A stretch of 32,569 nt of DNA, taken from NCBI RefSeq assembly GCF_023487995.1, contig NZ_JAMFKN010000015.1:1-32569 (forward strand). Reading direction: 5' to 3'. This document shows, piece by piece, positions 8,753 to 24,108 of the stretch. Position numbers and translations under genes: made by a program. The notes under the pieces are model-generated. The model did no database searches and was not told where the DNA came from. It worked only from the letters and a program-made list of their open reading frames with translations. Source of the stretch: Thermohalobaculum sediminis. GTDB taxonomy: Bacteria > Pseudomonadota > Alphaproteobacteria > Rhodobacterales > Rhodobacteraceae. Positions within the stretch are counted from its first letter, which is position 1; every line of letters begins with the position of its first letter.

Positions 8753-8802
8753 CCTTCGACGCTAGCCGTAATTCCTTCCGGAGCACTGCCCAAGGCAGTT
8801 AG

Positions 8803-9252: not shown

Positions 9253-9298
9253 CCGGTTTGCTCTGACAGGACCCTAAAGGCGCCTCATGGCCGTTTCG

Positions 9299-9319
9299 CG
9301 GACCCCCAACGGACCCCCA
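9299..9319. repeat. Tandem CGGACCCCCA pair just 3' of tRNA-Phe
   Basis: The ten-base unit CGGACCCCCA occurs twice in direct repeat (9299-9308 and 9310-9319), about 45 bases beyond the 3' end of the tRNA-Phe gene. It may be part of an old integration site or core-type binding site. Function is not shown. Confidence 0.45.
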
Positions 9320-9363
9320 CGCGGCGCGGGCTTATCGCGGATTTCTGTAAGATATTGAAATAG

Positions 9364-9439
<76 letters not shown>

Positions 9440-9497
9440 CCTCGTCACGGCACCTTCGGTGCCGGTCGGGTGCGCCGGCGGGCGGCGCGTGGGGGGC

Positions 9498-9527
9498 TAA
9501 TTAGGCGATTGGGCGGGGGCTTGTCCA
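9498..9527 (-). promoter_or_regulatory. Candidate promoter of tRNA-Phe
   Basis: On the minus strand TGGACA (9522-9527) matches five of six -35 bases. An AT-rich TAATTA (9498-9503) follows after 18 bases in otherwise GC-rich DNA. The predicted transcript would start about 50 bases before the tRNA. The -10 match is weak. Confidence 0.4.
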
Positions 9528-9635
9528 GCGCCAAATTCGGCCGGCGCGCAGGATGCGCGACACATGGTGACGTGCCCGCGACGCCGTCGCCATGCGTGCC
9601 ACCCACGGGCGGCGCGGACGTTGCGCGGAACGCCT

Positions 9636-10145: not shown

Positions 10146-10158
10146 TACTCTCTCCTTC

Positions 10159-11361
10159 TCAGGCCGGAACGCTCCGCGCAGGAACCGGCGGATCCATCGC
10201 CAGCGCCGCGCGCAGGCGGGTGCCGATGGCCGAGCCCGCGAACCCCCAGACGAGCCACCAGAAGCCGTGCATCGATCCCGAGACGAGGCCGCCCAGATAC
10301 GCCCCGATGTTGCAGCCATAGGCAAGTCGCGCGCCATAGCCCATCAGCAGGCCGCCGATCACCGCAGTCAGGAGCTCGCGCGCCGACAGCCGCCAGACCG
10401 GCGCGAACCGGCCCGCCAGCGCCGAGGCCGCGAGCGCCCCCAGAACGATGCCGAAGTTCATCACCGAGACGGCATCGGCGAGGACGCTGGCCCGCAACTG
10501 ATCGGCCCGCCAGCCCTGCCAGTAGGGCCAGGCGGCAACGTCGCCCCCGGCCGCCTCAAGGATCTTCGCCCCCCACAGCGCAAAGCCCGAGGTGATGCCC
10601 CAGGGCTGCTGAAACACGAGGAAGCACCCGATCGAGACAAGCGCGAGCGCGACCGCGCCGGCCTCCATCGACCACGGGCCGCGCAGCAGGCTCCCACTCG
10701 GCCGGGTCGTCTCGAGGGTTCCGTGCGCGTGCCGCTCGATGGCGGCCGAGATCACCCAAATCGCTCCGAGTACGAGGAGGAGCGCGGCGAGCCCGCCCAG
10801 TGGCCCGAACAGCGCGATCAGCGAGGTGCCGGGAATGTTCGGAATCCCCGTGATGCGGTCAAGCTGCGCCCAGAAGCCCGGGATATGCGCCGTCGCCCAG
10901 ACGCTGCCGGCGATGAAGAAGGCCAGCACCACCGTCATCCGGGTCGAGCCGCCGCCGACCGTGAACAGTGTTCCCGAGGCGCAGCCGCCGCCAAGCTGCA
11001 TACCGATGCCGAACAGGACCGCGCCGAAGGCCGAGGCCACGCCCATCGGCATGATCACCGGGCGCATGTCGATGCCGGTCGCATCCTCGTAGCCGATCAG
11101 CAGGAAGGTGCCCGCGCAGGCAATCGCGAGCAGCAGCATCTGCGCGCGCAGGCCCGCGCCGCGCCGCTCGCGCACCATCCGGCGCCAAGCGGCGGTGAAG
11201 CCGAAAGACGCATGGTAGAGCGCGAAGCCTGCCGCGCCGCCAAGCAGGGCGCCCGCCGCATAGGCCCCGCCCCCGCCCTGCCAGCCGCCGCGCGCCGCGA
11301 ACGCGGCGAGGGCCAGCCCGGCCAGTCCGGCGACGGAAAGGGCCAGCACGTTGCGTTGCAT
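10159..11361 (-). CDS. YeeE/YedE-family sulfur compound transporter
   Basis: A 400-residue polytopic membrane protein of the YeeE/YedE (sulf_transp) family, related to the thiosulfate transporter TsuA. The start at 11361 (MQRNVLALSVAGLAGLALAA) is chosen because GAGGA lies six bases upstream; the longer frame adds a basic, non-membrane N-terminus. Two family cysteine motifs are visible: GGGCASGTLFTVGGGS in the first half and YGCNIGAYLGGLVSGSMHGF near the C-terminus. These are the sites known in TsuA to pass thiosulfate by hydrogen bonding. About nine hydrophobic segments can be traced. It heads a two-gene minus-strand operon with the DUF302 protein and is divergent from the TPR gene at 11561. 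The substrate is probably thiosulfate or another sulfur anion. Confidence 0.9.
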   Translation of the reverse strand: MQRNVLALSVAGLAGLALAAFAARGGWQGGGGAYAAGALLGGAAGFALYHASFGFTAAWRRMVRERRGAGLRAQMLLLAIACAGTFLLIGYEDATGIDMRPVIMPMGVASAFGAVLFGIGMQLGGGCASGTLFTVGGGSTRMTVVLAFFIAGSVWATAHIPGFWAQLDRITGIPNIPGTSLIALFGPLGGLAALLLVLGAIWVISAAIERHAHGTLETTRPSGSLLRGPWSMEAGAVALALVSIGCFLVFQQPWGITSGFALWGAKILEAAGGDVAAWPYWQGWRADQLRASVLADAVSVMNFGIVLGALAASALAGRFAPVWRLSARELLTAVIGGLLMGYGARLAYGCNIGAYLGGLVSGSMHGFWWLVWGFAGSAIGTRLRAALAMDPPVPARSVPA

Positions 11362-11560
11362 CCGCGGTCCTCTTCGCTGTGCGTGTCGATGAGATGTACT
11401 TCTGGGCATTCCGCCTGTCTGCCGCAAGTCCCCGGCGCGGCCGCCGATTTCGCTCCGCAGCGGTCACATGTCGGTGAGCGGGTGTCGTTTCCATGGCGTT
11501 CAACACGCATTCTCACGGAAGCAGGCGAGAGTTGCGCCGCGATCGAACACAGGACGTGCG

Positions 11561-12919
11561 ATGACATCCCACCCGACGACGCCCCTGGTCGGCCCGGTCG
11601 GCACCGGTGCCCCCGCAAGCTGGGACCGCACCGTCACCGCCTTTCTCGCCCACGCCGCCAGCACGCCCGGGCATCTGGGCGAAACCCTGGCCGCCCGGCC
11701 CGACTTCGCGATGGGCTGGATCGCGAAGGGCTTCTTCTACCTGCTGCTCGGGCGGGCCGAGCTTGTCGGTGTGGCCCGCGAGGCGCTGGCCGAGGCGCGG
11801 CGGATCGCGCGCGGGGGCGGCCTCGACTGGCGCGGCCACTACTATCTCGACGCGCTGGCGGCCTACGCGGCGGGGCGGCCGTCGGTCGCTGTGCGCCACC
11901 TGGCTGAACTGCTGGAGCGCGATCCGACGGACACGCTCGCGTTCAAGCTCGATCACGCCATCCGCTTCGTGCTCGGCGACCGGCGGGGGATGCTCGCGGC
12001 CACCGCCGCCGTGCTGCCGCAGATCGGCGCGGATCACCCGCATCTGGGCTACGTGCTCGGCTGCCGGGCCTTCGCGCTCGAGGAGAACGGCGCCTATGCC
12101 GAGGCCGAGGCGACCGGCCGGCGCGCGGTCGAGCTTTCGCCCGACGACGCCTGGGGCCTGCACGCGGTGGCGCATGTCTACGACATGACCGGCCGGGCCG
12201 AGACCGGCATCCGCTGGCTCGAGCGGCGCACGGCATCGTGGGAGCACTGCAACAATTTCGGCACCCATGTCTGGTGGCACCTCGCGCTGTTCCACCTCGA
12301 CCGGGGCGAGTACGATCGGGTCTTCGACCTCTACGACACGCGGGTGCGGGCCGAGTCGACCGACGACTACCGCGACATCGCCAACGGCGCCTCGATGCTC
12401 ATGCGGCTCGAGGCCGAGGGGCTCGACGTCGGCACGCGCTGGGAGGAACTGGCCGATCTCGCCGCGAACCGGGTCGAGCCGGGCTGCGTGGTGTTCGCCG
12501 ACCTGCACTACCTGCTCGCGCTGGGCGGCGCCGGCAGGACCGCCGAGGCGGACCGGTTGATCGAGCGGCTTGCGCGCGACGCCCAAAGCCGGGAACATGA
12601 CATGCACGAGGTCGCCGCAGTGGCCGGGCATCCTGCCGCCCTCGGTCTCGCCGCCTTCCGCGCCGGCAGGTACGGGGTGGCGTTCGACAAGTTTCGGGCC
12701 GTGCGCCCGGCACTCCAGCGGGTGGGCGGCAGCCACGCGCAGCGCGACATTTTCTCGCGCCTGATGATCGAGGCCGCCATCCGCGCCGGGCGCTATGTCG
12801 AGGCCGAGGCGGAGCTGGCCGCGCGGGCCGCACGGCGCGGTGCCGAGGATGGCTTCACCGCCCGTCGCCGCGCCGCGATCTCGCGGGCGAGAGTTGCGCG
12901 AGGGGTTGCCGCGGAATGA
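11561..12919 (+). CDS. TTC38-like tetratricopeptide repeat protein
   Basis: A 452-residue soluble protein built of TPR-like helical repeats, matching the layout of the TTC38 family found in animals and many proteobacteria. The ATG at 11561 is preceded by AGGA six bases upstream; the frame is open before it. Typical stretches are FAMGWIAKGFFYLLLGRAEL, ALEENGAYAEAEATGRRAVE, DDAWGLHAVAHVYDMTGR and THVWWHLALFHLDRGEYDRV, the last being the family core. No signal peptide is present. The stop overlaps the start of the OpgC gene (ATGA), so it leads a plus-strand operon. The molecular role of bacterial TTC38 proteins is unknown to me; the fold suggests protein or small-molecule binding. Confidence 0.85.
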   Translation: MTSHPTTPLVGPVGTGAPASWDRTVTAFLAHAASTPGHLGETLAARPDFAMGWIAKGFFYLLLGRAELVGVAREALAEARRIARGGGLDWRGHYYLDALAAYAAGRPSVAVRHLAELLERDPTDTLAFKLDHAIRFVLGDRRGMLAATAAVLPQIGADHPHLGYVLGCRAFALEENGAYAEAEATGRRAVELSPDDAWGLHAVAHVYDMTGRAETGIRWLERRTASWEHCNNFGTHVWWHLALFHLDRGEYDRVFDLYDTRVRAESTDDYRDIANGASMLMRLEAEGLDVGTRWEELADLAANRVEPGCVVFADLHYLLALGGAGRTAEADRLIERLARDAQSREHDMHEVAAVAGHPAALGLAAFRAGRYGVAFDKFRAVRPALQRVGGSHAQRDIFSRLMIEAAIRAGRYVEAEAELAARAARRGAEDGFTARRRAAISRARVARGVAAE

Positions 12920-14526
12920 TCGAGGGGGGGATGCGACAGACCGGGCACGCGGCAGGTGGCGCCCCGGCGGCCAGGAGGCCCCGGGACCTGCGTCTCGACT
13001 TCTTCCGCGGCCTCGCGATGTTCATCATCCTGCTCGCGCACACGCCCGGCAACAGCTGGACGCTGTGGATCCCCGCGCGCTTCGGCTTCTCGGACGCGAC
13101 CGAGATCTTCGTGTTCTGCTCGGGTTTCGCCTCGTCTCTGGCCTTCGGAGCGGTGTTCGCGAAGAAGAGCTGGCGGCTTGGCGCCGCGCGGATCGCCTAC
13201 CGGGTGTGGCAGGTCTACTGGGCGCATATCTGCATCTTCCTCGCGACCGCGACGCTGCTGTTCGCGATCGACCATTTCGGGGTGGGGATCGAGGGTCACC
13301 GGCATGTGACCGAGCCCTATGTCGTGCCGCTCTTCACCCGCACCGGCGAGACGCTGATCGGTCTGTTTACCCTCACCTACGTGCCGGGGCTGTTCGACAT
13401 CCTGCCGATGTATCTCGTGATCCTTGCCATGGTGCCGATCGTGATGGCGCTTCATCGCGCAGGCGGGCGCGGGGCGGTCGCGGTCTTCGTCGTGACGCTG
13501 TGGCTTGCCTCGAACCTCGCAGGGCTGGGCCGCATGGCGCAGGCGGGCGAGGAGCCGGGCGCGCTGGTCGCCGCGCTCGCGCCGCTCGGCCACGCGCTGG
13601 CCTGGATGAACCTGCCCTCGAACCCGTTCGGCGGGGGCACGTGGTTCTTCAACCCGTTCGGCTGGCAGCTCGTGTTCTTTACCGGCTTTGCCTTCGGGAT
13701 GGGCTGGCTGCCGGCGCCGCCCGTGAGCCGCGGGCTGATCCGGCTCGCGCTCGCGATCGTCCTGATTACGGTGCCCTTCGCCTGGTTCAAGATCCACGAC
13801 GGCCACTACCTGCCCGCCGGCTGGGTGCTGCACGAATGGATCGTCGCCGTGCGCGGCTGGACCGAGCCGATGTGGTGGAAGTCGTGGCAGGGGGGGCTGC
13901 GCTTCCTCCATTTCCTCGCGGTGGCCTACCTTGCCTGGGTCGCGGTCGGTCCCGGCGGGCGGCGCCTGACCGAAGGCTTCCGCCCGCCGGCCCCGGCGCG
14001 GGCGGCATGGCTTGCCGTGGCGGCGGTCGTGGCGCTGGCGACCATCCCCTACGCCTATGTCGACGAGATCCGGCGGCTATCGCCGGCGCTGGACGGCCTC
14101 CTCCTCGAGACGGTCCCGCTGGTGTCGGGCGACCGGATCGGGCTCCTGCAGCTTGCGCATCTGGCGGCCCTCGTGGTGCTCGCCTGGTCGGCGATCGGCG
14201 CGGCGCGGCGCGAGGCGGTGGCGCGCCGCTGGCTGCCGGCGGCGGTGCCCGTGATCCGCAAGGTGGGCACGCAGAGCCTTGCCGTCTTCATGATGTCGAT
14301 CCCGCTCGCGCAGGTGAACGGCTGGCTCCTTGGCATCATGCAGCCCGACGTCTGGAACCGCGCGGCGGTCAACCTGTCGGGGTTCGCCATCCTGATCGCG
14401 ACGGCCTATATGGTCTCGTGGTTCAAGTCGCAGCCCTGGCGCGGCAGCCATGTCGCACCATCTCATGCGACTGAGGCCGAGAGCCGCAAGGCCGGAACCT
14501 CCGGCGGGGCCGCGGTGCAGACGTGA
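12916..14526 (+). CDS. opgC: OpgC family protein (periplasmic glucan modification)
   Basis: A 536-residue integral membrane protein of the OpgC type, related to the acyltransferase-3 superfamily and linked to succinylation of osmoregulated periplasmic glucans. The N-terminal signature is clear: RDLRLDFFRGLAMFIILLAH, then FGFSDATEIFVFCSGFASSL, and a tryptophan/tyrosine-rich helix (AYRVWQVYWAHICIF). About ten membrane segments follow. The ATG at 12916 overlaps the upstream stop; an ATG at 12931 right after GAGGGGGGG is an equally possible start and would remove five residues. opgH lies 4.7 kb away on the same strand, separated by the RibD, cytochrome and pteridine-type genes. opgG is not in the window. 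Family call is firm, transfer of succinyl groups is inferred. Confidence 0.9.
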   Translation: MIEGGMRQTGHAAGGAPAARRPRDLRLDFFRGLAMFIILLAHTPGNSWTLWIPARFGFSDATEIFVFCSGFASSLAFGAVFAKKSWRLGAARIAYRVWQVYWAHICIFLATATLLFAIDHFGVGIEGHRHVTEPYVVPLFTRTGETLIGLFTLTYVPGLFDILPMYLVILAMVPIVMALHRAGGRGAVAVFVVTLWLASNLAGLGRMAQAGEEPGALVAALAPLGHALAWMNLPSNPFGGGTWFFNPFGWQLVFFTGFAFGMGWLPAPPVSRGLIRLALAIVLITVPFAWFKIHDGHYLPAGWVLHEWIVAVRGWTEPMWWKSWQGGLRFLHFLAVAYLAWVAVGPGGRRLTEGFRPPAPARAAWLAVAAVVALATIPYAYVDEIRRLSPALDGLLLETVPLVSGDRIGLLQLAHLAALVVLAWSAIGAARREAVARRWLPAAVPVIRKVGTQSLAVFMMSIPLAQVNGWLLGIMQPDVWNRAAVNLSGFAILIATAYMVSWFKSQPWRGSHVAPSHATEAESRKAGTSGGAAVQT

Positions 14527-14561
14527 GAGAGACCGTCCCGGTCTGACGAGGGAGTGACGCA

Positions 14562-15299
14562 GTGTTCGTCCATGCCGGCAAGGGAAGCGGGAGGCGCCGT
14601 TCATCGGATTACGACCCCGAAACCGCGCTCGACCGCCTGCTGCGGTCGCGCGGGACAGATGGCGTGGTGATCGGCCAGCTCGGCCAGTCGCTCGACGGCC
14701 GCATCGCGACGCCCACTGGCGCCTCGAAATACATCAATGGGCACGAGGCGCTGTGCCACCTTCATCGGATTCGCGCCAATGTCGATGCGGTGATCGTCGG
14801 CGTCGGCACGGCGGTGGCGGACGATCCGCAGCTCACGACGCGCCATGTCGAGGGGGCGAACCCGGTCCGCGTCGTCATCGACCCGGCCGGCAGGATGCCG
14901 CGGGACCTCGCGATGCTGCGCGACGGCGCGGCGCCGGTTCTGGTCGTCACCACCGCGGACCGGCCAGTGCCCGAGGGCGCCGAGGCGGTGCGGCTCGCCT
15001 GCGACGGCGAGGGGCGCATCCATCCAGGCAGGATCGTCGCGGTGCTGCGCCAGCGCGGCCTCGGGCGGCTGCTGGTCGAGGGCGGGGCCGAGACGCTCGC
15101 GCGCTTCATCGACGCGGGCGAGCTGGACGAGCTGCACCTGATGGTCGCGCCGATCGTGCTCGGCTCGGGCAAGACGGGGCTCAACCTGAACCCCATCGCG
15201 GGGCTCGACCAGGCACTGCGCCCGCTGGTGCGGACGATGCGCTTCAAGGACGGCGACATGCTGTGCATGTGTGACATGCGGCGCCCGATCGCGGCCTGA
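14562..15299 (+). CDS. RibD reductase-domain (RibD_C/DHFR-like) protein
   Basis: A 245-residue protein containing only the reductase domain of RibD; the zinc deaminase domain of bifunctional RibD is absent. Start is GTG 14562, with GAGGGAG seven bases before it. The first about 35 residues are a divergent extension, then the domain follows: GQLGQSLDGRIATPTGASKY, IRANVDAVIVGVGTAVADDP, NPVRVVIDPAGRMP, LLVEGGAETLARFIDAGELD and LHLMVAPIVLGSG. The NADPH and substrate motifs (SLDGRIA, GVGT, DDP, EGG) are intact, so it should be an active reductase of a pyrimidine, pterin or related ribosylated substrate. It follows opgC by 35 bases. It converges, together with cytochrome b561, on an operon with a QueD homologue, so it may serve that pathway rather than riboflavin synthesis. 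Confidence 0.9.
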   Translation: MFVHAGKGSGRRRSSDYDPETALDRLLRSRGTDGVVIGQLGQSLDGRIATPTGASKYINGHEALCHLHRIRANVDAVIVGVGTAVADDPQLTTRHVEGANPVRVVIDPAGRMPRDLAMLRDGAAPVLVVTTADRPVPEGAEAVRLACDGEGRIHPGRIVAVLRQRGLGRLLVEGGAETLARFIDAGELDELHLMVAPIVLGSGKTGLNLNPIAGLDQALRPLVRTMRFKDGDMLCMCDMRRPIAA

Positions 15300-15328
15300 G
15301 CCGCGTCGGCGACAGAGGGGACACTGGC

Positions 15329-15880
15329 ATGCAACCTGCCCGCTATCACGTCGCCCAACGCCTGATCCACTGGCTGATCGCCCTCGTCGTGCTCGGGGCG
15401 CTCACGGTCGGCTTTACGCTGGGGACACTCGGCTTCGAGGGCGCGCGCGACCGCTTCGGGCTCGAGGCCACGAATGCCCTCTACAAGTATCACAAGAGCT
15501 TCGGCGTGCTGATCCTCGGACTGATGGTACTGCGCCTCGGGCTCTGGGTGGCGCTGGGCCGCCCGGCGCTGCCGCAGGACATGACGGTGCCGCAGCGCCT
15601 TGCCGCGATCGCCACGCATGCGGCGCTCTATCTCCTGCTGATCGCGATGCCGGTGGTCGGCTGGATGGCGACGGCAGCCGGCGGCTTCCCGATCGAGTTC
15701 TTCGGCTGGGTGCTGCCCGGCCTTATGGCCAAGGACCCCGCGCTGTCCGAGTGGCTCTACGGCCTGCACGGGACGCTGGGGATCGCCATCCTCGCGGTCG
15801 CGGGCCTGCATGTCGCGGCCGCGCTGTGGCACTGGCGGGTGCGGCGCGACGGGATCATGCGGCGCATCAGCCTGCCTTGA
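15329..15880 (+). CDS. Cytochrome b561
   Basis: A 183-residue inner-membrane dihaem cytochrome b561 of the bacterial CybB type. Four hydrophobic helices are visible. Candidate haem ligands are His in VAQRLIHWLIAL (helix 1), YHKSFGVLILGL (helix 2), LHGTLGIAIL and LHVAAALWHW (helix 4). GAGGGG lies eight bases before the ATG. These proteins pass electrons between quinol and periplasmic acceptors such as superoxide. It lies 29 bases after the RibD-type gene on the same strand and ends only six bases from the convergent methyltransferase gene. Confidence 0.92.
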   Translation: MQPARYHVAQRLIHWLIALVVLGALTVGFTLGTLGFEGARDRFGLEATNALYKYHKSFGVLILGLMVLRLGLWVALGRPALPQDMTVPQRLAAIATHAALYLLLIAMPVVGWMATAAGGFPIEFFGWVLPGLMAKDPALSEWLYGLHGTLGIAILAVAGLHVAAALWHWRVRRDGIMRRISLP

Positions 15881-15886
15881 AGGCGC

Positions 15887-16669
15887 TCAGCCGGGCGGAA
15901 GGGCCAGCAGGTCCTTGTGACCGATGACCACGCGCGCGGCACCCTTGCGCACAGTCCACCAGTCTCCCGCCGCCCTCCCCAGCGCGGGCCTGACCGCGGC
16001 GGCGCTGCCCTCGGCCAGCGCGGCGATCAGGGCGGCATCGCGGGGCGCCTCCAGCGCCCAGTCGCTCGGCCCCTCCTCGACCCGGTAGCCGCGCGCGGCT
16101 AGGCAGCGGGCGAGGTGGTCATGCGCATCCGGCCCCATCGCCGGCCCCAGCCCCTTGTCGCGCCGCTGGTCGGCATGGAAGGCCGAAAGGGCCGCGGCGT
16201 CGCCCGCGAAGGCGGGCTCCCAGACCTCGCGCCCGTCATAGCTGAGCACCGTGTAGAGCGCCGCGCCCGACACCGCGAGCGCATCCGCGAAACGCTCGAT
16301 CCAAGCCGCGCCGCAGAGATCGAAGAAGGCCGAGGCCGTCACGAGATCGGGCGCCGGGCGCAGCAGTGCGCCCACGCCGCAGGCAAGGTCGGTCAGCTGC
16401 AACTCGACCGTCGCCCCCCGCGGCGCCCGTGCCCGGGCGCGCGCCAGCAGGCCCGCATCCGCATCCGCCAGCACCCAGTGCTGAGCCGGCCCCAGCAGCG
16501 GCGCCGTCGCCGCCATGTTGTTGCCGCTGCCGGCGCCGAGATCGACGATCCGCAGCCCTCCCGTGCGCTCCGCGAAGTGGCCGGCAAGCCGCGCCGCCAG
16601 CGCCGCGTTGCGCGCCCGCCCATCGGCCCCGGCGCGAAGGCCCAGCCAGTCGGCCGAGAAGCCGCTCAT
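15887..16669 (-). CDS. Class I SAM-dependent methyltransferase
   Basis: A 260-residue Rossmann-fold methyltransferase. The SAM-binding motif I is LRIVDLGAGSGNNMAATAPL (about residues 40-59). Motif II is HWVLADADAGLLARAR, and DLVTASAFFDLCGAAWIERF carries the motif IV region. The ATG overlaps the glycosyltransferase stop (ATGA), so it is the last gene of the four-gene minus-strand operon. The substrate is unknown. In this context a small-molecule target, such as the product of the preceding glycosyltransferase, is likely. It is not close to rRNA or protein methyltransferases I can name. Confidence 0.88.
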   Translation of the reverse strand: MSGFSADWLGLRAGADGRARNAALAARLAGHFAERTGGLRIVDLGAGSGNNMAATAPLLGPAQHWVLADADAGLLARARARAPRGATVELQLTDLACGVGALLRPAPDLVTASAFFDLCGAAWIERFADALAVSGAALYTVLSYDGREVWEPAFAGDAAALSAFHADQRRDKGLGPAMGPDAHDHLARCLAARGYRVEEGPSDWALEAPRDAALIAALAEGSAAAVRPALGRAAGDWWTVRKGAARVVIGHKDLLALPPG

Positions 16670-17751
16670 GCCCCGGCGGCCGCCACCGCCCCGCCAGGGA
16701 TTTCGGCCTCGACCGCGGCCAGGGCTCCCGCGACCGCGGCGACCGTTGCCTCCCAGCGCGGCAGCCGGGGCGCCGCGCCCAGTGCGCGCGCGGCCAGCGC
16801 CCGGCGGGCCGCGGGGTCGGCGATCACGCCGCGAAGCGCCGCGGCCAGCGCCGCCTCGTCACCCGGCGGCACCAGCAGCGCTGCGCCCAGCGTCGCCTCG
16901 GCCACCGCGCCCGCGTCGGTGCCGACCACCGGCAGGCCGCGGGCGATGGCCTCGGCATAGACCATGCCGAACCCCTCGTGATGCGAGGCGAGGGCAAAGA
17001 GGTCCGCGCCGTCATACGCCAGCGCCAGCGCCGCCGCATCGGCGGCCCCCGCGAAGCTCACGCGACCCTCCAGCCCCAGCGCCGCCACCTGCGCCCGAAG
17101 CCACGCCACATGGCCGGGGTCACGGTCGTCCGCGCCGACGATGGTGAGGCGCCAGTCGAGATCGCCCAGCCGCGCCAGAGCCCCGATCAGCACGTCATGC
17201 CCCTTGCGCGGCACCAGGGTCCCGACCGAGAGGATCGCCACTCCCGGTCCGCCCGAGCCACGCGCCGGCGGCGCGGGGTCGGTCCCCGGCGGCGCCACGG
17301 TGATCCGCGCCATCGGCACCCCGTACTCGGCGGCGAGCGTCGCAGCCGTCGCCCGGCTGGTTGTGACCACCCGCGCCGCGCGGGCCAGCGCCGCGCGCTC
17401 GGACGCCGCGAGTCGGGCGGCCTCGGCCGGCGCGAGGCCCGTCTCGAGCGCAAGCGGATGGTGGCACAGCGCGACCAGAGGACCGTCGACGAGGTCGAGC
17501 AGATCGCACCCCATCCCCCCCAGCGCCAGCCCGTCGATCATCACCGGCCAGCCCGACGGGATCGCCGCCAGCCGCCGAGCGGTCTCGGCGAGCGCGGCCT
17601 CGGACGGCACGGGCCAGCCGCCCGGCAGTGGCCAGTGCACGAGATCGAGCCCCGCGGCCTTCGCCCCGGCCAGCAGCCGGCGGGCATAGCCATAGCCGCC
17701 CGTCGGCGTCTCGAGCGCGCCGGGAACAGCGAAGACCGCGCGAGCGATCAC
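16666..17751 (-). CDS. Family 4 glycosyltransferase (GT-B)
   Basis: A 361-residue GT-B retaining glycosyltransferase. The GTG at 17751 overlaps the stop of the QueD-like gene (GTGA) and starts the family N-terminus (IARAVFAVPGALETPTGGYG); the frame extends upstream only in shadow. The C-terminal nucleotide-sugar domain is typical: SVGTLVPRKGHDVLIGALAR, then LASHHEGFGMVYAEAIARGL with the E-x7-E motif near residues 258-266, and PVVGTDAGAVAEATLG. It sits between a pterin-synthase homologue and a methyltransferase, and there are no polysaccharide-export genes beside it, so a soluble small acceptor is more likely than a lipid or polymer. Donor sugar unknown. Confidence 0.88.
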   Translation of the reverse strand: MIARAVFAVPGALETPTGGYGYARRLLAGAKAAGLDLVHWPLPGGWPVPSEAALAETARRLAAIPSGWPVMIDGLALGGMGCDLLDLVDGPLVALCHHPLALETGLAPAEAARLAASERAALARAARVVTTSRATAATLAAEYGVPMARITVAPPGTDPAPPARGSGGPGVAILSVGTLVPRKGHDVLIGALARLGDLDWRLTIVGADDRDPGHVAWLRAQVAALGLEGRVSFAGAADAAALALAYDGADLFALASHHEGFGMVYAEAIARGLPVVGTDAGAVAEATLGAALLVPPGDEAALAAALRGVIADPAARRALAARALGAAPRLPRWEATVAAVAGALAAVEAEIPGGAVAAAGA

Positions 17752-18146
17752 GGCCGCCCCTCGTACCAGGCGCGGGCCACGTGGCTCTCGTTCAGCGTGA
17801 CGCGAATCAGGTTCAGCCCCTCGGAGCCCGGCCCCAGCCGCCCTTCGCGCGCCGCCGCGGCCACGGCGTCGAAGATGTGGCGGCACAGGAATTCGGTCGT
17901 CGTCTTGATGCCCTGGAACTGCGGCAGCGCGTCGAGATTGGCGTAGTTGATGGGCGCGAGCGTGGCCTTCAGCACGTCATGCGCGCGGCCGATGTCGACG
18001 ACGATGCCATCCTCGGACAGCGTCTCGCGCATGAAGGCCACGTCGATCACATAGGTCGCGCCGTGCAGCTTCTGCGCGGGGCCAAAGACTTCGCCGGGGA
18101 TGGAGTGGGCGATCATGATGTGATCGCGAACCTCGACGGCATACAT
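17748..18146 (-). CDS. QueD/PTPS-fold protein lacking canonical active-site residues
   Basis: A 132-residue protein of the 6-pyruvoyl-tetrahydropterin synthase/6-carboxytetrahydropterin synthase (QueD) fold. By eye alignment with E. coli QueD, the first zinc His is kept (IAHSIPG, His14). The catalytic Cys and second half of C-x3-HGH are changed: here AQKLHGATY, so Cys becomes Ala24 and one zinc His becomes Ala30. The Asp-His pair of LDHxxLN becomes INYANLD, so the Asp and His of the triad are Asn and Tyr. The pterin-anchoring Glu (TLNESHVARAWYEG) remains. It may bind a pteridine but should not do standard chemistry. It starts two bases after the dehydrogenase stop, with GGGAGG upstream. Automatic annotation would call it QueD, which I doubt. 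Confidence 0.85.
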   Translation of the reverse strand: MYAVEVRDHIMIAHSIPGEVFGPAQKLHGATYVIDVAFMRETLSEDGIVVDIGRAHDVLKATLAPINYANLDALPQFQGIKTTTEFLCRHIFDAVAAAAREGRLGPGSEGLNLIRVTLNESHVARAWYEGRP

Positions 18147-18148
18147 GC

Positions 18149-19141
18149 TCAGACGGCCTCCCTGCCATATGCGACGCGCGTAGCGATACCCGCTGCACCC
18201 GGCGCCAGCAACCCGGCCAGCGCCCCGGGAAGCGCCTCGAAAGTCACTTCGCCGGTCACGAATGCGTCGACGCGCGGATCGTCCAAAAGCGCGAGCGCCC
18301 GCGACAGCCGCTCGCGGTGCGTCACCCGGACGCGCCGGGTGGGGGCGACATGGCCCACCTGGCTCGACCGGATCGTCAGGCGCTGCGAATGGAACGCCCC
18401 CCCCAGTGGCGCCGGCACCGCCGCGTCGCCGTACCAGCTCAGTTCGATCAGCGTCCCCTCGAAGCGCAACGCCCCAAGCCCCGCCGCGAGACCTGCCGCC
18501 GTCGCCGAGGTGTGAAAGACCAGATCATGATCGGGCACGAGTTCGCCGGGATTACGAAACTTCACGCCAAATTCAGCCGCGAGCGCCTCGCGCTCCGGTA
18601 GAATGTCGCAGGCCGTGACCTCGAGATCCTCCCGCCGCGAGAGCAGCGCCATGACAAGAAGCCCCAACAGCCCCATCCCGATCACGGCGACCCGCGCGCC
18701 GGGTGCCAGGGCGGGCGCCGCGTCCCAGATCGCGTTCAGCGCCGTCTCCATGTTCGCGGCCAGGACGGCGCGGCCCGGGGGCACGCCCTCGGGCACCGGC
18801 AGGACGGAACTGGCCGGCAGGCGGATGCGGTCCTGATGAGGATGCAGCGCGAAGACGGTGCGGCCGATCAGGCGTGCGTCGCCCGCGACGACTCGACCAA
18901 CGGCGGCATAGCCATATTTCACCGGGAACGGGAAGTCGCCCTGCTGGAACGGCGCGCGCATCCGCGAGTGTTCGCCGGACGGAACGCGGCCCTCCCAGAC
19001 CAGCCGCTCGGTCCCCCGGCTGAGCGCCGAGGCGCAGGTCTCGACCTCGACCCAGCCGGCGTGGAGCGGCGGCAACGGGTTCGGGCGAAGTTCGGCCGCG
19101 CGCGGGGCGGTGTACCAGAGGGCGCGAGCCGTGTCGGTCAT
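18149..19141 (-). CDS. MDR-type zinc-binding-like alcohol dehydrogenase
   Basis: A 330-residue medium-chain dehydrogenase/reductase and first gene of the operon dehydrogenase, QueD-like, glycosyltransferase, methyltransferase. The NAD(P) site is VAVIGMGLLGLLVMALLS (GxGxxG). The N-terminal domain has CASALSRGTERLVWEGRVP and FPVKYGYAAVGRVVAG, where classical zinc enzymes have a Cys-Gly-Ser-Asp start and a GHE motif; the structural-zinc cysteine cluster is also absent. It therefore belongs to the SRGTE/BchC-like branch that may work without catalytic zinc. The ATG at 19141 has AAGGA eleven bases upstream; the long frame before it is a shadow of the divergent opgH gene. Predicted role is reduction or oxidation of a small intermediate, substrate unknown. 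Confidence 0.85.
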   Translation of the reverse strand: MTDTARALWYTAPRAAELRPNPLPPLHAGWVEVETCASALSRGTERLVWEGRVPSGEHSRMRAPFQQGDFPFPVKYGYAAVGRVVAGDARLIGRTVFALHPHQDRIRLPASSVLPVPEGVPPGRAVLAANMETALNAIWDAAPALAPGARVAVIGMGLLGLLVMALLSRREDLEVTACDILPEREALAAEFGVKFRNPGELVPDHDLVFHTSATAAGLAAGLGALRFEGTLIELSWYGDAAVPAPLGGAFHSQRLTIRSSQVGHVAPTRRVRVTHRERLSRALALLDDPRVDAFVTGEVTFEALPGALAGLLAPGAAGIATRVAYGREAV

Positions 19142-19222: not shown

Positions 19223-21082
19223 ATGCCGACTGACATCACCCCGCCCGCCCAGACCGCCGACCGGATCGGTGCCGTGGCCGCGCATCCGGGGCAGGTGGCG
19301 CTGACGCCAGCGGGCCTGCAACCGCGGGGCGCGCTGACGGCGCGGCGCGCAGCCTTCCTGAGCCTCAACCTGGCCACCCTGGCCGCGCTGGGCTGGGGAG
19401 TGGCGCAGGTGTTCGGCGCGGGAGGCTGGTCGGCTGCGGACATCGTGATGATGGCCTGCTTCCTTCTGGGCGCGCCCTGGACGGTCATGGGGGTGTGGAA
19501 CGCGCTGGTCGGCGTCTGGCTGCTGCATGGCCGCCGCGACGGGCTGGCGCTGGCCGCGCCGCATCTGGCGGCGGCCGAGGGCGGCGCGCCGCTGACGCAG
19601 CGCACCGCCATCGCGATGACCGTTCGGAACGAGGACCCCACCCGCTCGTTCCAGAAGCTAGCCGAGATCCGCCGCAGCCTCGACGCCACCGGGCAGGGCC
19701 ACCGCTTCGACATCTTCGTGCTGTCGGACACCACCGAGCCCGAGGTCGCCACGGCCGAGGAGCGGCTGTTCGAGGCCATGCGACCCGCCCTTGGACAGGG
19801 CGCCGCCTACCGCCGCCGCACCGGCAACACCGGCTTCAAGGCCGGCAACGTGCGCGATTTCCTGATGACGATGGGTCGCGATCACAGCTTCTACCTGCCG
19901 CTCGACAGCGACAGCCTGATGTCCGGCGAGGCGATCGTGCGGATGCAGCGGATCATGGAGGCATACCCCCGCATCGGCATCCTGCAGAGCCTCGTGGTCG
20001 GCGCCCCCGCCACCAGCTTCTTCGCGCGCGTCTTCCAGTTCGGCATGCGCCACGGGATGCGCAGCTACACCATGGGCGCAGCCTGGTGGCAGGGCGACTG
20101 CGGCCCCTACTGGGGCCACAACGCGCTCATCCGCGTGCAGCCCTTCCGCCGCCACACCCGCCTGCCGGTGCTGCCGGGCAAGCCGCCGCTGGGCGGCCAC
20201 ATCCTCAGCCACGACCAAGTCGAGGCCGTGCTGGTGCGCCGAGCGGGATACGAGGTGCGCGTCATGCCCGTCGAGACCGAGAGCTGGGAGGAGAACCCGC
20301 CGACCCTGATGGACTTCACCAAGCGCGATCTGCGCTGGTGTCAGGGTAACATGCAGTACTGGCGCCTTCTGGGGCTGCGCGGGCTTCAGCCGGTGTCGCA
20401 TTTCCAGCTGTTCGCCGCGATCATGATGTATTTCGCGGCGCCTGCATGGATGGTGATGACGGTGGCCGCCGCCGCGCGCATGGTGCAGGGCGACGTGGCG
20501 GGCATCGACGTGGCCTTCGGCATCGCGATGTTCTTCGTGATGTTTGCCGTCAGCCTCGTGCCGAAGCTTCTGGGCATGTTCGACATCCTGCTGACCCCTG
20601 GCGGCACGGCGCGCTACGGCGGCACGGCGCGCTTCCTCGCGGGCGGGCTGGTCGAGACGGTGTTCTCGATTCTGATGGCGCCGGTCGTGGCCTTTCGGGT
20701 GAGCCTGTTCCTCGCGGGGCTCGCGATGGGCAAGTCGGTGATCTGGGGCGCGCAGAACCGCGACGCCTACCGCCTCTCATGGGCCGATGCTGCGCGCGGG
20801 CTGTGGCCGCAGACGCTGTTCGGGGCGGGGCTGTTCGCGCTGATCCTCGTCTATGCGGGGCCCGGCGTCGTGGTCTGGGCGGCGCCGATGCTGACGGGGC
20901 TCATGCTGGCGATCCCCTTCGCGGTGCTGACGGCGAGCCCGTCCCTGGGAAGGCTTGCGGCGCGGCTCGGCCTGTGCGCCGTGCCGGACGAGCGCGCGCT
21001 GCCGCGCGAACTTGCCAGTACCGGGTATGCCGGCACACCCGCGCCCGAAACACCCGCGCCCGCGCCCCTGCGCGCCGCCTGA
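19223..21082 (+). CDS. opgH: Glucans biosynthesis glucosyltransferase OpgH (MdoH)
   Basis: A 619-residue inner-membrane family 2 glycosyltransferase that polymerises UDP-glucose into the backbone of osmoregulated periplasmic glucans. Two membrane helices precede the catalytic domain, which shows FVLSDTTEPEVAT (Asp near 169), LPLDSDSLMSGEAI (the DxD-type motif near 227-231), ILSHDQVEAVLVRRAGY (catalytic-base region, near 330) and RDLRWCQGNMQYWRLL (the QxxRW-equivalent, near 368-373). Several helices follow (FQLFAAIMMYFAAPAWMVMT). AAAGGA lies about 12 bases before the ATG. It is divergent from the dehydrogenase operon. opgC is 4.7 kb upstream on the same strand, and opgG, normally the partner gene, is not next to it. 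The family assignment is firm. Confidence 0.93.
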   Translation: MPTDITPPAQTADRIGAVAAHPGQVALTPAGLQPRGALTARRAAFLSLNLATLAALGWGVAQVFGAGGWSAADIVMMACFLLGAPWTVMGVWNALVGVWLLHGRRDGLALAAPHLAAAEGGAPLTQRTAIAMTVRNEDPTRSFQKLAEIRRSLDATGQGHRFDIFVLSDTTEPEVATAEERLFEAMRPALGQGAAYRRRTGNTGFKAGNVRDFLMTMGRDHSFYLPLDSDSLMSGEAIVRMQRIMEAYPRIGILQSLVVGAPATSFFARVFQFGMRHGMRSYTMGAAWWQGDCGPYWGHNALIRVQPFRRHTRLPVLPGKPPLGGHILSHDQVEAVLVRRAGYEVRVMPVETESWEENPPTLMDFTKRDLRWCQGNMQYWRLLGLRGLQPVSHFQLFAAIMMYFAAPAWMVMTVAAAARMVQGDVAGIDVAFGIAMFFVMFAVSLVPKLLGMFDILLTPGGTARYGGTARFLAGGLVETVFSILMAPVVAFRVSLFLAGLAMGKSVIWGAQNRDAYRLSWADAARGLWPQTLFGAGLFALILVYAGPGVVVWAAPMLTGLMLAIPFAVLTASPSLGRLAARLGLCAVPDERALPRELASTGYAGTPAPETPAPAPLRAA

Positions 21083-21246: not shown

Positions 21247-22242
21247 ATGTCGCTCGCGCATCCCTACCTGCTGTTCTTGGGCGACGCGCCCGACCCGCTC
21301 GCCGCCAAGGTCGCGCAGGGCATCCGCGACTGGCGTCCCGAGGCCAGCGTCGGTCAGTTCCGCATGCCCGGCTGCAACGCCGACATGCGGCTGCCGGACA
21401 TGACCATCGCCGAAGCCGCGGCCGCCGGCGCGCGCACGCTGGTGATCGGCGTGGCCAACCGCGGCGGGGTGATATCGGAGGCCTGGCAGTCCGTGCTCAT
21501 CGAGGCGATGGAGGCGGGAATGGACATCGCCGCGGGCCTTCACACCCTGCTGCGCGACCAGCCCGCGCTGGTCGAGGCGGCAGCCCGCACCGGCCACCTG
21601 CTGCACGACGTGCGCCTGCCCGACCGCAAGTATCCCATCGGCGACGGGCGCAGGCGCAGCGGCAAGCGGCTGCTGGCGGTCGGCACCGACTGCTCCTGCG
21701 GCAAGATGTACACCGCGCTCGCGATGGAGAAGACCATGCGCGCGCGCGGCATGAAGGCCGATTTCCGCGCCACCGGCCAGACCGGCATCCTGATCACCGG
21801 CGAGGGCGTGCCGCTCGACGCGGTGATCGCCGACTTCATGGCCGGCGCGGTCGAGGTGCTGACGCCCGACAACGACGCCGACCACTGGGATCTGATCGAG
21901 GGCCAGGGGTCGCTGTTCCACCCGTCCTATTCGGGCGTGACCATGGCGCTGATCCATGGCGGGCAGGCGGACGCGCTGGTGCTGTGCCACGAGCCCACGC
22001 GCAGCCACATGCGTGGCCTGCCACACTATCCCTCGCCGTCGATCGACGATCTGGGGCCGCTGGTGCTGCCGCTCGGCCGGATCGTGAACCCGGACGTGCG
22101 CATCATCGGCTGCTCGATCAACACCGCGGCGCTGTCGGAGGACGAGGCGCAGGAATACCTCGCCGCGACCGAGAAACGTCTCGGCATGCCCTGCGTCGAT
22201 CCCTTCCGGCACGGCGCCGACCGGCTGGTGGACGCGCTGTGA
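21247..22242 (+). CDS. dgcN: DUF1611 family D-glutamate N-acetyltransferase (DgcN)
   Basis: A 331-residue DUF1611 protein of the DgcN type, described in marine bacteria as acetylating D-glutamate to N-acetyl-D-glutamate, the first step of a D-glutamate catabolic route. The N-terminal Rossmann-like domain is followed by a P-loop-like motif, VGTDCSCGKMYTALAMEKTM (about residues 144-163). ITGEGVPLDAVIADFMAGAV and EGQGSLFHPSYSGVTMALIH then form the C-terminal core. GGAGG lies upstream of ATG 21247. Its stop overlaps the GTG of dgcA (GTGA), and a D-amino acid transaminase gene follows, which supports the assignment. Acetyl-CoA as donor is family knowledge, not visible here. Confidence 0.88.
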   Translation: MSLAHPYLLFLGDAPDPLAAKVAQGIRDWRPEASVGQFRMPGCNADMRLPDMTIAEAAAAGARTLVIGVANRGGVISEAWQSVLIEAMEAGMDIAAGLHTLLRDQPALVEAAARTGHLLHDVRLPDRKYPIGDGRRRSGKRLLAVGTDCSCGKMYTALAMEKTMRARGMKADFRATGQTGILITGEGVPLDAVIADFMAGAVEVLTPDNDADHWDLIEGQGSLFHPSYSGVTMALIHGGQADALVLCHEPTRSHMRGLPHYPSPSIDDLGPLVLPLGRIVNPDVRIIGCSINTAALSEDEAQEYLAATEKRLGMPCVDPFRHGADRLVDAL

Positions 22243-23225
22243 GCCTGACGCTGGTAACGGAAGTCCGCAGCTTCCCCATCGCGGGCAGGTTCACGATCAG
22301 CCGCGGCAGCCGGACCGAGGCGGTGGTGGTCGAGGCCCGCCTCTCGGCCGGTGGCATCACCGGCCGAGGCGAGTGCGTGCCCTATGCCCGCTATGGCGAG
22401 ACGGTCGAGAGCGTGACGGCGCAGATCGAAGGGCTGCGCGGCGCGCTGACCGCCGGCCTCGAACGCGCCGGGCTGCAGGCGGCGCTGCCCGCGGGCGCCG
22501 CGAGGAACGCGCTCGACTGCGCCTTCTGGGATCTCGAGTCGAAGCGCGCCGGGCGCCGGGTGTGGCAGCTTGCGGGCCTGCCCGCGCCGGGGCCCGAGAT
22601 CACCGCCTACACGCTCTCGCTGGACACGCCCGAGGCGATGCGCGCCAAGGCGGCCCAGCACGCCCACCGCCCGCTCCTCAAGATCAAGCTGGGCGGCGGC
22701 CCCGAGGACATCGCGCGCCTGCAGGCGGTGCGCGAGGGCGCGCCCGATGCGCGCATCATCATCGACGCAAACGAAGGGTGGACGGCCCAAAGCTATGCCG
22801 AAATTGCCCCCGTAATTCTCGCCCTCGGCGTCGAGATGGTCGAGCAGCCCCTGCCCGCGGGCGACGACGCGGCGCTCGCCACCATCGCCCGGCCCCTGCC
22901 CGTCTGCGCGGACGAGAGCTGCCACGACCGCGCCTCGCTGCCCGGGCTCGCGGGCAAGTACGACATGGTCAACATCAAGCTCGACAAGACCGGCGGGCTG
23001 ACCGAGGCGCTGGCGCTGCGCGCCGCAGCCGAGGCCGCGGGCTACAAGGTGATGGTGGGTTGCATGCTGGGCTCGTCGCTTGCGATGGCGCCCGCGCTGC
23101 TGGTGGCCCAAGGCGTGGCGGTCACCGACCTCGACGGCCCGCTGCTGCTGGCCGAGGACCGCCCGCACGGGCTGAAATTCGACGCGGCGGGGGTCCACCC
23201 GCCCGAGGCGGCGCTCTGGGGCTGA
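22239..23225 (+). CDS. dgcA: Enolase-superfamily N-acetyl-D-glutamate racemase (DgcA)
   Basis: A 328-residue enolase-superfamily protein of the dipeptide epimerase/mandelate-racemase branch, here best read as DgcA. GTG 22239 overlaps the dgcN stop. All catalytic elements are visible: KxK in LLKIKLGGG (about 147/149), metal ligands in IIDANEGW (Asp about 175), EQPLPAGDD (Glu about 201) and CADES (Asp about 225), and the second base Lys in NIKLDKTGGL (about 247). The N-terminal cap domain has RFTISRGSRTEAVVVEARL and ECVPYARYGETVES. Annotation pipelines often call this an L-Ala-D/L-Glu epimerase. The fusion-like overlap with dgcN favours racemisation of N-acetyl-glutamate, and peptide epimerase activity remains possible. 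Confidence 0.88.
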   Translation: MSLTLVTEVRSFPIAGRFTISRGSRTEAVVVEARLSAGGITGRGECVPYARYGETVESVTAQIEGLRGALTAGLERAGLQAALPAGAARNALDCAFWDLESKRAGRRVWQLAGLPAPGPEITAYTLSLDTPEAMRAKAAQHAHRPLLKIKLGGGPEDIARLQAVREGAPDARIIIDANEGWTAQSYAEIAPVILALGVEMVEQPLPAGDDAALATIARPLPVCADESCHDRASLPGLAGKYDMVNIKLDKTGGLTEALALRAAAEAAGYKVMVGCMLGSSLAMAPALLVAQGVAVTDLDGPLLLAEDRPHGLKFDAAGVHPPEAALWG

Positions 23226-23253
23226 TGCCCGGGGCCGATGGACGGAGACGGGA

Positions 23254-24108
23254 ATGAGCAGGACGGTCCATGTGAACGGCGCCTATGTGCCCGAGGAGGA
23301 GGCGAAGATCTCGGTCTTCGACCGCGGCTTCCTGATGGCGGACGGCGTCTATGAAGTCACCTCGGTGCTGGAGGGCAGGCTCTGCGACTTCGCGGGTCAC
23401 ATCGCGCGCCTGCATCGCTCGCTGCGCGAGCTCGACATGCCCGCGCCGGTGAGCGACGACGCGCTCCTCGTCATCCACCGCGAACTGGTGGCGCGCAATG
23501 GCGTCGAGGAGGGGCTGGTCTATCTTCAGGTGACCCGCGGCGCGCATGACCGCGACTTCGCCTGGCCCGAGGGGCTGACGCCGTCCCTTGTGCTGTTCAC
23601 GCAGGCAAAGCCCCTGATCCGGTCCGCCGCCGCCGCCCGCGGCATCCGGGTCGTCTCGGTCGAGGACCTGCGCTGGCGCCGGCGCGACATCAAGACGGTG
23701 CAGCTGCTCTACCCCAGCCTCGCCAAGATGGATGCAAAGAAGCGCGGGGTCGATGACGCCTGGCTGGTCGAGGATGGGCTGGTGACCGAGGGCACCTCGA
23801 ACAACGCCTGGATCGTGACGAAGGGCGGCAGCATCGTGACCCGGCAGCTCTCGAACGACATCCTGCACGGCATCACCCGCGCGGCGGTCCTGAAGCTTGC
23901 CGCCGAGGCGCAGCTGAGGGTCGAGGAGCGCCCCTTCACCATCGCCGAGGCGCAGGACGCGGCCGAGGCCTTCTCGACCGCCGCGTCGAGCTTCGTCATG
24001 CCGGTGGTCGAGATCGACGGCAAGCGGCTCGGCGACGGCAAGCCCGGGCCGGTCGCCCGGCGCCTGCGCGACATCTACGTCGAGAACGCGATGGCCACCG
24101 CCATCTGA
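23254..24108 (+). CDS. dat: D-amino acid transaminase (class IV, PLP)
   Basis: A 284-residue fold-type IV aminotransferase. Residues EEAKISVFDRGFLMADGVYE form the conserved start of the domain. The PLP lysine is in RRDIKTVQLLYPSLAKM (about Lys146). EDGLVTEGTSNNAWIVTKGG and SNDILHGITRAAVLKLA carry the phosphate and substrate-loop residues. It most resembles D-alanine/D-glutamate transaminases, which interconvert D-alanine plus 2-oxoglutarate with pyruvate plus D-glutamate. It starts 28 bases after dgcA. Together the three genes can make D-glutamate, acetylate it and bring it into the L-form. A branched-chain or aminodeoxychorismate lyase role is less likely. Annotated here with good but not complete certainty as D-specific. 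Confidence 0.87.
   Translation: MSRTVHVNGAYVPEEEAKISVFDRGFLMADGVYEVTSVLEGRLCDFAGHIARLHRSLRELDMPAPVSDDALLVIHRELVARNGVEEGLVYLQVTRGAHDRDFAWPEGLTPSLVLFTQAKPLIRSAAAARGIRVVSVEDLRWRRRDIKTVQLLYPSLAKMDAKKRGVDDAWLVEDGLVTEGTSNNAWIVTKGGSIVTRQLSNDILHGITRAAVLKLAAEAQLRVEERPFTIAEAQDAAEAFSTAASSFVMPVVEIDGKRLGDGKPGPVARRLRDIYVENAMATAI

Follow-up and report, generated by a model that had tools for sequence, protein, structure and literature searches.

An SCO6650-type gene cluster in Thermohalobaculum sediminis: one copy of a widespread candidate pathway probably starting from a GTP-derived aminopyrimidine

Gene organization of the locus

The window considered here is the whole stretch of DNA that was analysed, the entire contig NZ_JAMFKN010000015.1 (C6; 32,569 bases) of the Thermohalobaculum sediminis genome (4.31 Mb in 43 contigs). 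It contains a group of genes around a protein with the fold of 6-pyruvoyltetrahydropterin synthase (PTPS), referred to below as the PTPS-like protein. These genes almost certainly form one pathway. We explain the locus as a representative of an uncharacterised pathway that occurs widely, the SCO6650-type cluster; as a whole, this explanation has roughly an even chance of being correct.

The initial annotation of the range 14562-19141 had reported four minus-strand genes joined by overlaps or a 2-base gap, with the genes for a RibD_C reductase and a cytochrome b561 converging on them. This layout is confirmed by the coordinates and strands obtained on re-analysis of the window:

18149-19141, minus strand: MDR-superfamily dehydrogenase (ADH_zinc_N, below the cut-off; alignment of 19)
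17748-18146, minus strand: PTPS-fold (COG0720-like) protein of the SCO6650 type (Pfam PTPS, 79 bits; relative of 3d7j)
16666-17751, minus strand: glycosyltransferase of family GT4, GT-B (Glycos_transf_1, 101 bits)
15887-16669, minus strand: class I S-adenosylmethionine-dependent methyltransferase (weak Pfam match; AlphaFold model)
14562-15299, plus strand: stand-alone RibD_C (DHFR-fold) reductase (Pfam, 142 bits)
15329-15880, plus strand: cytochrome b561 (Ni_hydr_CYTB, 91 bits)
19223-21082, plus strand: MdoH/OpgH-like membrane glucosyltransferase (MdoH models), divergent from MDR
12916-14526, plus strand: OpgC-type acyltransferase, peripheral (300 bits)

Two bases (18147-18148) separate the MDR and PTPS-like genes, the latter shares the 4-base overlap GTGA with the GT4 gene, and the GT4 and methyltransferase genes also overlap by 4 bases. 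The GT4 gene likely starts at the GTG at 17751, the longest frame, from 17886, being an upstream extension; the start of RibD_C is uncertain, as the Pfam match opens at residue 36. Six bases lie between the cytochrome b561 and methyltransferase genes. The MdoH-like and MDR genes start 81 bases apart on opposite strands; the MdoH-like and OpgC genes are linked genes just beyond the initially annotated range. The scores of RibD_C, cytochrome b561, GT4 and the PTPS-like protein are all above the Pfam cut-offs. Those of the methyltransferase (25 bits) and of MDR (20 bits) fall short of them, yet both proteins belong to families conserved across the loci described next.

Distribution and gene linkage

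The distribution of the PTPS-like protein is patchy. It is present in nine of 61 relatives of the window's genome, that is, in five of five members of the genus (own genome included), three of 32 others in the family and one of 24 others in the class. A profile search in 398 genomes drawn evenly from the window's phylum, again with the own genome included, found it in 27 genomes belonging to 20 of the 213 genera, with 11 of these genomes lying outside the class of the window. Among GTDB species genomes, a relative is encoded in at least 503 stretches; the best 80 were fetched, and the sample therefore leans to the Alphaproteobacteria. Further, 22 plasmid records match at E ≤1e-3, and 16 of them were fetched. 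The last two of the 22 are archaeal, with just 27-30% identity; the other matches include Methylosinus, Rhizobiaceae, Palleronia, Thiodictyon, Streptomyces, Arthrobacter and Microbacterium. In Methylosinus trichosporium OB3b the cluster resides on plasmid pOB3b1.

Linkage was counted in the 86 of 126 PTPS loci that have at least 7 kb on both sides, the 40 loci lacking 7 kb on one side being excluded. Models of gene families, built by unsupervised clustering of the first 97 loci and from annotated plasmid genes, were then searched in the 126 loci. A neighbour was considered present if a match, at a score threshold chosen by us, was situated within 8 kb of the PTPS-like gene. The loci are redundant in these counts, some coming from the same genomes (e.g. 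L011 and G001).

The most frequent neighbours are GT4 (82 of the 86 loci), MDR (79), the methyltransferase (71), RibD_C (54) and MdoH (51), followed by GTP cyclohydrolase II (35), cytochrome b561 (34), an FkbM methyltransferase (24), CDP-alcohol phosphatidyltransferase (19), a YfhO-like membrane protein and an LPG-synthase-TM protein (17 each). Less common are an HGSNAT-type acyltransferase (10), creatininase (9), OpgC (8, mostly in the window's own kin) and a sulfatase-annotated family (7). A family of periplasmic-looking proteins is present in 21 loci; the copy tested, the secreted-looking protein at 6025-7236 (minus strand) of L043, has no Pfam or NCBIfam match. The MDR gene is located directly upstream of the PTPS-like gene and co-directional with it in 74 loci.

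Loci from the phylum draw were not picked for closeness to the window. Among the 24 well-flanked of the 26 fetched, MDR and GT4 occur in all 24, RibD_C in 21, the methyltransferase in 16 and GTP cyclohydrolase II in ten. Given the 86-locus count and the draw of 398 genomes, the linkage is more than chance. The gene set spans the Alphaproteobacteria, Gammaproteobacteria and Actinomycetota, with clusters in Streptomyces, Peteryoungia, Thiodictyon, Palleronia, Agrobacterium, Microbacterium and Rhizobium. Conservation in other genomes had been set as one test of the single-pathway idea, and across these three groups the genes recur together. The proposal of a conserved, apparently undescribed single pathway stands, more strongly than when it was first made. 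In the literature searched, no publication recognisable as describing the gene set was found; this is weak evidence, most subscription papers being outside the coverage.

The near-minimal locus L114 consists of MDR, PTPS, GT4, methyltransferase, RibD_C and GTP cyclohydrolase II genes, with one extra frame between the methyltransferase and RibD_C. This cluster (G051, about 4300-16200) is flanked by frames that by eye resemble ruvA, ruvB, tolQ and a disulfide-bond protein gene, as if it were inserted among housekeeping genes.

Several loci deviate in other ways. In L159 and L164 the GT4 gene is relocated upstream of MDR and the usual methyltransferase is gone; another methyltransferase and an EamA transporter adjoin GT4 in L159, and L164 has their homologues, making a third kind of accessory set. 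The solo PTPS-like genes of L092, L110 and L111, at about 10001-10400, have common surroundings with genes for a BTAD regulator, a sigma-70 factor, a cupin and an MBL-fold protein. Finally, in L012 (and G008), from a record titled Oceanobacillus sp., the PTPS-like protein is 85% identical to that of the window and the cluster is syntenic with those of the window's kin; the record is probably mislabelled.

The PTPS-like protein

The sole clear solved relative of the PTPS-like protein by sequence is SCO6650 of Streptomyces coelicolor (PDB 3d7j; phmmer E 4e-41; profile 218 bits). The deposit calls SCO6650 uncharacterised, and the cluster context is added by the present analysis. The structure paper reportedly concluded that zinc and the catalytic triad are missing. 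The window protein belongs to the same family and shows the same loss of PTPS catalytic residues. In the alignment to rat PTPS and QueD, the zinc motif HGH is replaced by HGA, the region of the catalytic Cys reads GPAQ, and the catalytic Asp-His pair is replaced by Asn-Tyr. The AQxxHGAT motif is present in all 126 loci, and HGH in none. At the same time, Thr-Thr-Glu (TTTE) and Glu120 are retained, as seen in an alignment including 81 rows. In rat PTPS, Thr-Thr-Glu and Glu serve as anchors of the pterin. Judged by its sequence, the protein (AlphaFold model, pLDDT 86.0) appears to have the T-fold with the pterin-anchoring Thr-Thr-Glu and the second Glu.

The initial annotation had named this protein a QueD homologue. 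In the functional sense the name does not hold, because the catalytic residues and one zinc ligand are lost and QueC is absent from the genome. A canonical QueD or PTPS function, in queuosine, folate or biopterin synthesis, agrees with the family-level PTPS match (79 bits) and with public records, where relatives are named 6-carboxytetrahydropterin synthase, that is, a queuosine enzyme. However, the QueD model TIGR03367 gives 41.6 bits with the cut-off of 89.25, both the catalytic Cys and Asp-His are replaced, HGA stands for HGH throughout, and full-length QueC is absent from eight of the nine kin genomes carrying the cluster. The lone point for a QueD-like role is the ninth of these genomes, G002, which has full-length QueC and no other PTPS-family gene; it is 4% contaminated, and contamination is a possible source of its QueC. 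The window's genome contains no second PTPS-family gene. The canonical function is thus largely refuted and very improbable, and the queuosine, folate and biopterin roles were dropped on the motif loss and the missing QueC.

GTP cyclohydrolase II and RibD_C

Several of the plasmid clusters carry an annotated GTP cyclohydrolase II gene, and the enzyme independently emerged as the eighth-commonest family in unsupervised clustering. The cluster copies (52 rows in 51 loci) retain the cysteines 54/65/67 (E. coli numbering), which we take to be the zinc ligands, as well as Arg128. Tyr105, likewise a presumed functional residue, is found in 46 rows, while two rows, both from Streptomyces, have Met, one has Val and three have a gap. 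Two copies, L053 13537-14805 and L021 13620-14513, lack the Tyr105 stretch or are misaligned there; they could be decayed or frameshifted.

RibD_C accompanies GTP cyclohydrolase II in 31 of the 35 loci having the latter, compared to 23 of 51 loci without it. The RibD_C domain of the window scores 142 bits with the cut-off of 24.1, and contains no deaminase domain. Among solved proteins it is closest to the stand-alone reductases 6p8c, named 2,5-diamino-6-ribosylamino-4(3H)-pyrimidinone 5'-phosphate reductase, and 2azn, named putative 5-amino-6-(5-phosphoribosylamino)uracil reductase. At least 70 of 72 rows retain the LDG, T-x(3)-D-x-P and EGG columns, and the conserved columns agree with 2azn across the 72 loci. 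Hence RibD_C is predicted to reduce a diaminopyrimidinone ribosyl phosphate.

It could be argued that RibD_C and cytochrome b561 are an independent pair that happens to adjoin an MDR-PTPS-GT4-methyltransferase operon, since both are encoded on the opposite strand in the window, and 32 and 52 of the 86 loci, respectively, lack them. Yet RibD_C recurs next to the other genes in Actinomycetota, Gammaproteobacteria and Alphaproteobacteria, also in the co-directional arrangement (L094, L097), and both the phylum-draw count and the association with GTP cyclohydrolase II tell against an accidental neighbourhood. We consider this explanation quite unlikely.

In the riboflavin route of archaea and fungi, GTP cyclohydrolase is followed by reduction and then by deamination. 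The cluster resembles this route in having GTP cyclohydrolase II together with a stand-alone RibD_C closest to 6p8c and 2azn. Unlike it, the cluster RibD_C has no deaminase domain, the MDR, PTPS-like, GT4, methyltransferase and membrane genes are added, and the genome encodes a separate second RibD of bifunctional length. The linkage of GTP cyclohydrolase II, the deaminase-less RibD_C and the second RibD together suggest a branch-off from the riboflavin route before deamination. The 2-amino group would then be kept for the PTPS-like pocket, which appears built to hold such a group. A GTP-derived 2-aminopyrimidinone is the likely substrate.

The window's genome has two GTP cyclohydrolase II genes. 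The one on contig C21 is stand-alone, has the catalytic residues of the E. coli enzyme intact and is 51-55% identical to the cluster copies in L097 and L162; the one on C43, near the second RibD, is a weak match to the cluster profile (47 bits).

Creatininase-family genes were considered as a possible further step, archaeal ArfB being a member of this family. SCO6655 is said to make formamidopyrimidine and to carry Met at the Tyr105 position. The best NCBIfam model for the cluster creatininases is MftE, under its cut-off; for the Streptomyces copy the ArfB model yields 37 bits against 180, and for the L173 copy it is unlisted. No creatininase is encoded in the window's genome. A strict pairing of an ArfB-like formyl hydrolase with the Met105 cyclohydrolase was rejected on these model scores and on the occurrence of creatininase in Tyr-type loci, and is retained as a hint only.

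Dehydrogenase, glycosyltransferase and methyltransferase

The MDR family (alignment of 19) has Ser and Tyr, in the SRGTE and YGYA motifs, at what we take to be the zinc-ligand positions of MDR alcohol dehydrogenases. The protein weakly matches the HpnZ (41 bits) and BchC (36 bits) models, both far under the cut-off. It is similar to BchC, the bacteriochlorophyllide dehydrogenase, in this weak match and in the zinc-less SRGTE motif, presumably also that of BchC; it differs in scoring far below the BchC cut-off of 291 and in being surrounded by other genes.

A grouping of the glycosyltransferase with lipopolysaccharide enzymes had been named as the second test of the single-pathway idea. The best named model for GT4 is the exopolysaccharide glycosyltransferase EpsE (111 bits, the cut-off being 400), and its nearest solved chains are Tll1590, MshA and PimA. 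No pteridine glycosyltransferase is among its solved matches at E ≤1e-8, no head-to-head comparison having been made. For the methyltransferase, a sequence search of the PDB returned nothing at E ≤0.01; the best fold matches of its AlphaFold model (pLDDT 95.9) are generic class I methyltransferases.

These observations bear on the claim, made in the initial annotation, that the product is a glycosylated, methylated pteridine or a related pyrimidine compound. The presence of GTP cyclohydrolase II in 35 of the 86 loci, the expected first step of such a route, supports the general idea. A pteridine proper would start from dihydroneopterin (or its phosphate), made by FolE or arising when the GTP cyclohydrolase II product cyclises; the side chain would be altered by MDR and the PTPS-like protein, and glycosylation and methylation would follow, leading to a compound like the cyanobacterial pterin glycosides. 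Pterin glycosides are found in cyanobacteria (PMC13259868) and in Chlorobium (PMC5683033). The cluster shares with these systems (cyanopterin; pteridine glycosyltransferase) the idea of a sugar-bearing GTP-derived heterocycle, and the PTPS fold with retained pterin-anchoring residues fits it as well. However, the linked cyclohydrolase is of type II, a riboflavin-type enzyme, the RibD_C reductase would block rearrangement to a pterin, GT4 is closest in the PDB to MshA, PimA and Tll1590, and RibD_C, the cyclohydrolase and the membrane module distinguish the cluster from the pterin glycoside systems. Thus an aminopyrimidine of the RibA/RibD type is more likely than a pteridine of the FolE type (FolE itself was not searched for), and we regard the pteridine as improbable, though the most serious of the alternatives.

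Membrane modules

The gene divergent from MDR is of two kinds. An MdoH gene scoring above 600 bits is present in 49 of the 86 loci, CDP-alcohol phosphatidyltransferase in 19, neither in 18, and both in none. Both occupy the divergent position, MdoH (any match) in 48 of 51 loci and CDP-alcohol phosphatidyltransferase in 17 of 19, so these are two interchangeable membrane modules at one position. In Neorhizobium L112 the MdoH gene is instead co-directional, 2 bases before MDR. The exclusion of one module by the other holds cleanly just for MdoH above 600 bits.

A tree of MDR and PTPS was built from another set of 86 loci (MDR required; the flank rule waived from L091 on), reduced to 84 rows by dropping two at 93% identity. 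The two module labels need two changes on it, and the 11 rows with neither module are scattered. The CDP-alcohol type comprises the Actinomycetota and non-alpha loci having a module and four of five Rhizobiaceae plasmid loci. Most other Alphaproteobacteria are of the MdoH type, and the window groups there with Thermohalobaculum.

The window's MdoH-like protein scores 812 bits with the nearest MdoH model, not reaching the cut-off of 884, and clears two of nine MdoH models (514 vs 419 and 496 vs 328). Synthesis of osmoregulated periplasmic glucans (OPG) thus has to be considered: the MdoH-like enzyme would be central, and the remaining genes would make a substituent or form a control system. This agrees with the MdoH-like neighbour in 51 of the 86 loci and OpgC in eight, with the two models passed, with MdoG being adjacent in L168 and L173, and with the two MdoG genes of the window's genome. 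Both of the latter are on C43, none being on the window's contig, and the window lacks the MdoH-beside-MdoG arrangement of the OpgGH type. Moreover, MdoG was not found in six of the nine cluster-bearing kin genomes (G002, G003, G004, G008, G012, G021; G003 and G012 being 85% and 82% complete). In four of the six, an MdoH-like gene with full score adjoins the cluster (L013, L045, L012, L116); in G003 and G012 this gene is truncated by the contig end. Clusters with CDP-alcohol phosphatidyltransferase instead are equally complete. OPG synthesis as the core of the system is weakened by the MdoG-less cluster genomes, and we deem it unlikely.

Two side observations concern these genes. The two MdoG genes on C43 (149060-160499) are about 9 kb apart, as they are in G001. 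Downstream of the MdoH-like gene, three plus-strand genes (21247-24108) resemble by eye those for DUF1611/DgcN, a dipeptide epimerase and a D-amino-acid transaminase, the names being presumptive; the first recurs past MdoH in eight loci, which comprise the window and its kin.

CDP-alcohol phosphatidyltransferase and the YfhO-like, HGSNAT-type and LPG-synthase-TM proteins are membrane proteins, and one peripheral family has a signal-peptide-like start. Because of these families and the membrane modules, we propose an envelope product. In the CDP-alcohol arrangement, CDP-alcohol phosphatidyltransferase, GT4 (nearest solved relatives including PimA and MshA) and LPG-synthase-TM are found together, as in the assembly of phosphatidylinositol mannoside-type glycolipids; the difference is that cyclohydrolase, RibD_C and PTPS-like genes occupy the place where inositol genes would be expected. 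Either membrane module favours an envelope glycoconjugate over a soluble pterin glycoside. For a location of the product in or on the membrane, the chances are about equal either way.

Proposed pathway

The aminopyrimidine formed by GTP breakdown is the raw material of vitamin B2 and of pterins. What the analysis shows is the linkage of the genes, the swapping of the membrane module, the lost and retained motifs and a GTP cyclohydrolase II in some of the clusters; beyond this, we infer the substrates, the order of steps and the final product as follows. The first enzyme would be GTP cyclohydrolase II, presumably supplied in the window's genome by the stand-alone copy elsewhere; it would convert GTP to 2,5-diamino-6-ribosylamino-4(3H)-pyrimidinone 5'-phosphate. 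RibD_C would reduce the ribosyl chain to ribityl, leaving the 2-amino group in place because it has no deaminase domain. The PTPS-like protein appears to keep the residues gripping a 2-amino-4-oxo-pyrimidine or pterin ring and has lost those of PTPS catalysis; it and the zinc-less MDR dehydrogenase may remodel the ring or the side chain. Addition of a sugar by GT4 and of a methyl group by the methyltransferase would follow. Finally, the membrane module (MdoH-like here, CDP-alcohol phosphatidyltransferase and LPG-synthase-TM elsewhere) may extend or lipid-link the product and bring it to the envelope. The product is probably a sugar-decorated, methylated compound, possibly membrane-linked, made from a GTP-derived aminopyrimidine; the order of steps as written is tentative and unlikely to be right throughout.

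Several observations weigh against this pathway. The window itself encodes no GTP cyclohydrolase II, which occurs in just 35 of the 86 loci, and its supply from elsewhere in the genome is an assumption, because most of the family has two such genes with or without the cluster. RibD_C, as said, is not universal in the loci. By sequence, none of GT4, the methyltransferase and MDR resembles anything that acts on a pyrimidine. The Streptomyces plasmid loci L092, L110 and L111 hold the PTPS-like gene without the rest of the set. The pairing of Met105 cyclohydrolase with creatininase is seen in two of two Streptomyces loci, but creatininase is also found in five Tyr-type loci. In 18 of the 86 loci neither membrane module is within 8 kb, and weaker MdoH genes (337-525 bits) exist in the CDP-alcohol-type loci L163, L170, L173 and L174. 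The latter look like ordinary nearby OPG operons, since they are farther off and beside MdoG or its homologues.

On balance, an aminopyrimidine derived through GTP cyclohydrolase II and ending in the envelope is favoured over the less likely QueD label and plain pteridine glycoside. A far more speculative extension, a long shot, is a glycolipid anchored in the membrane and either redox-active or light-absorbing; in it, 2-amino-ribitylpyrimidine, or a deaza- or pterin-like ring made from this compound, would replace the inositol of phosphatidylinositol mannosides. The glycolipid would be exported via CDP-alcohol phosphatidyltransferase and LPG-synthase-TM or be glucan-borne via the MdoH-like enzyme, as in most Alphaproteobacteria seen, and cytochrome b561 would exchange electrons with it. 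If so, Alphaproteobacteria, Gammaproteobacteria and Actinomycetota would share an envelope cofactor of a new class.

Significance

An envelope glycoconjugate with a GTP-derived head group, should this be the product, would represent a chemical class without a bacterial example in the literature searched. The gene set is common. Its PTPS-like gene carries the annotation of a queuosine enzyme in public records. The SCO6650-type PTPS-fold family, whose structure was solved without a function, gains a genomic context with concrete predictions of substrate and pathway.

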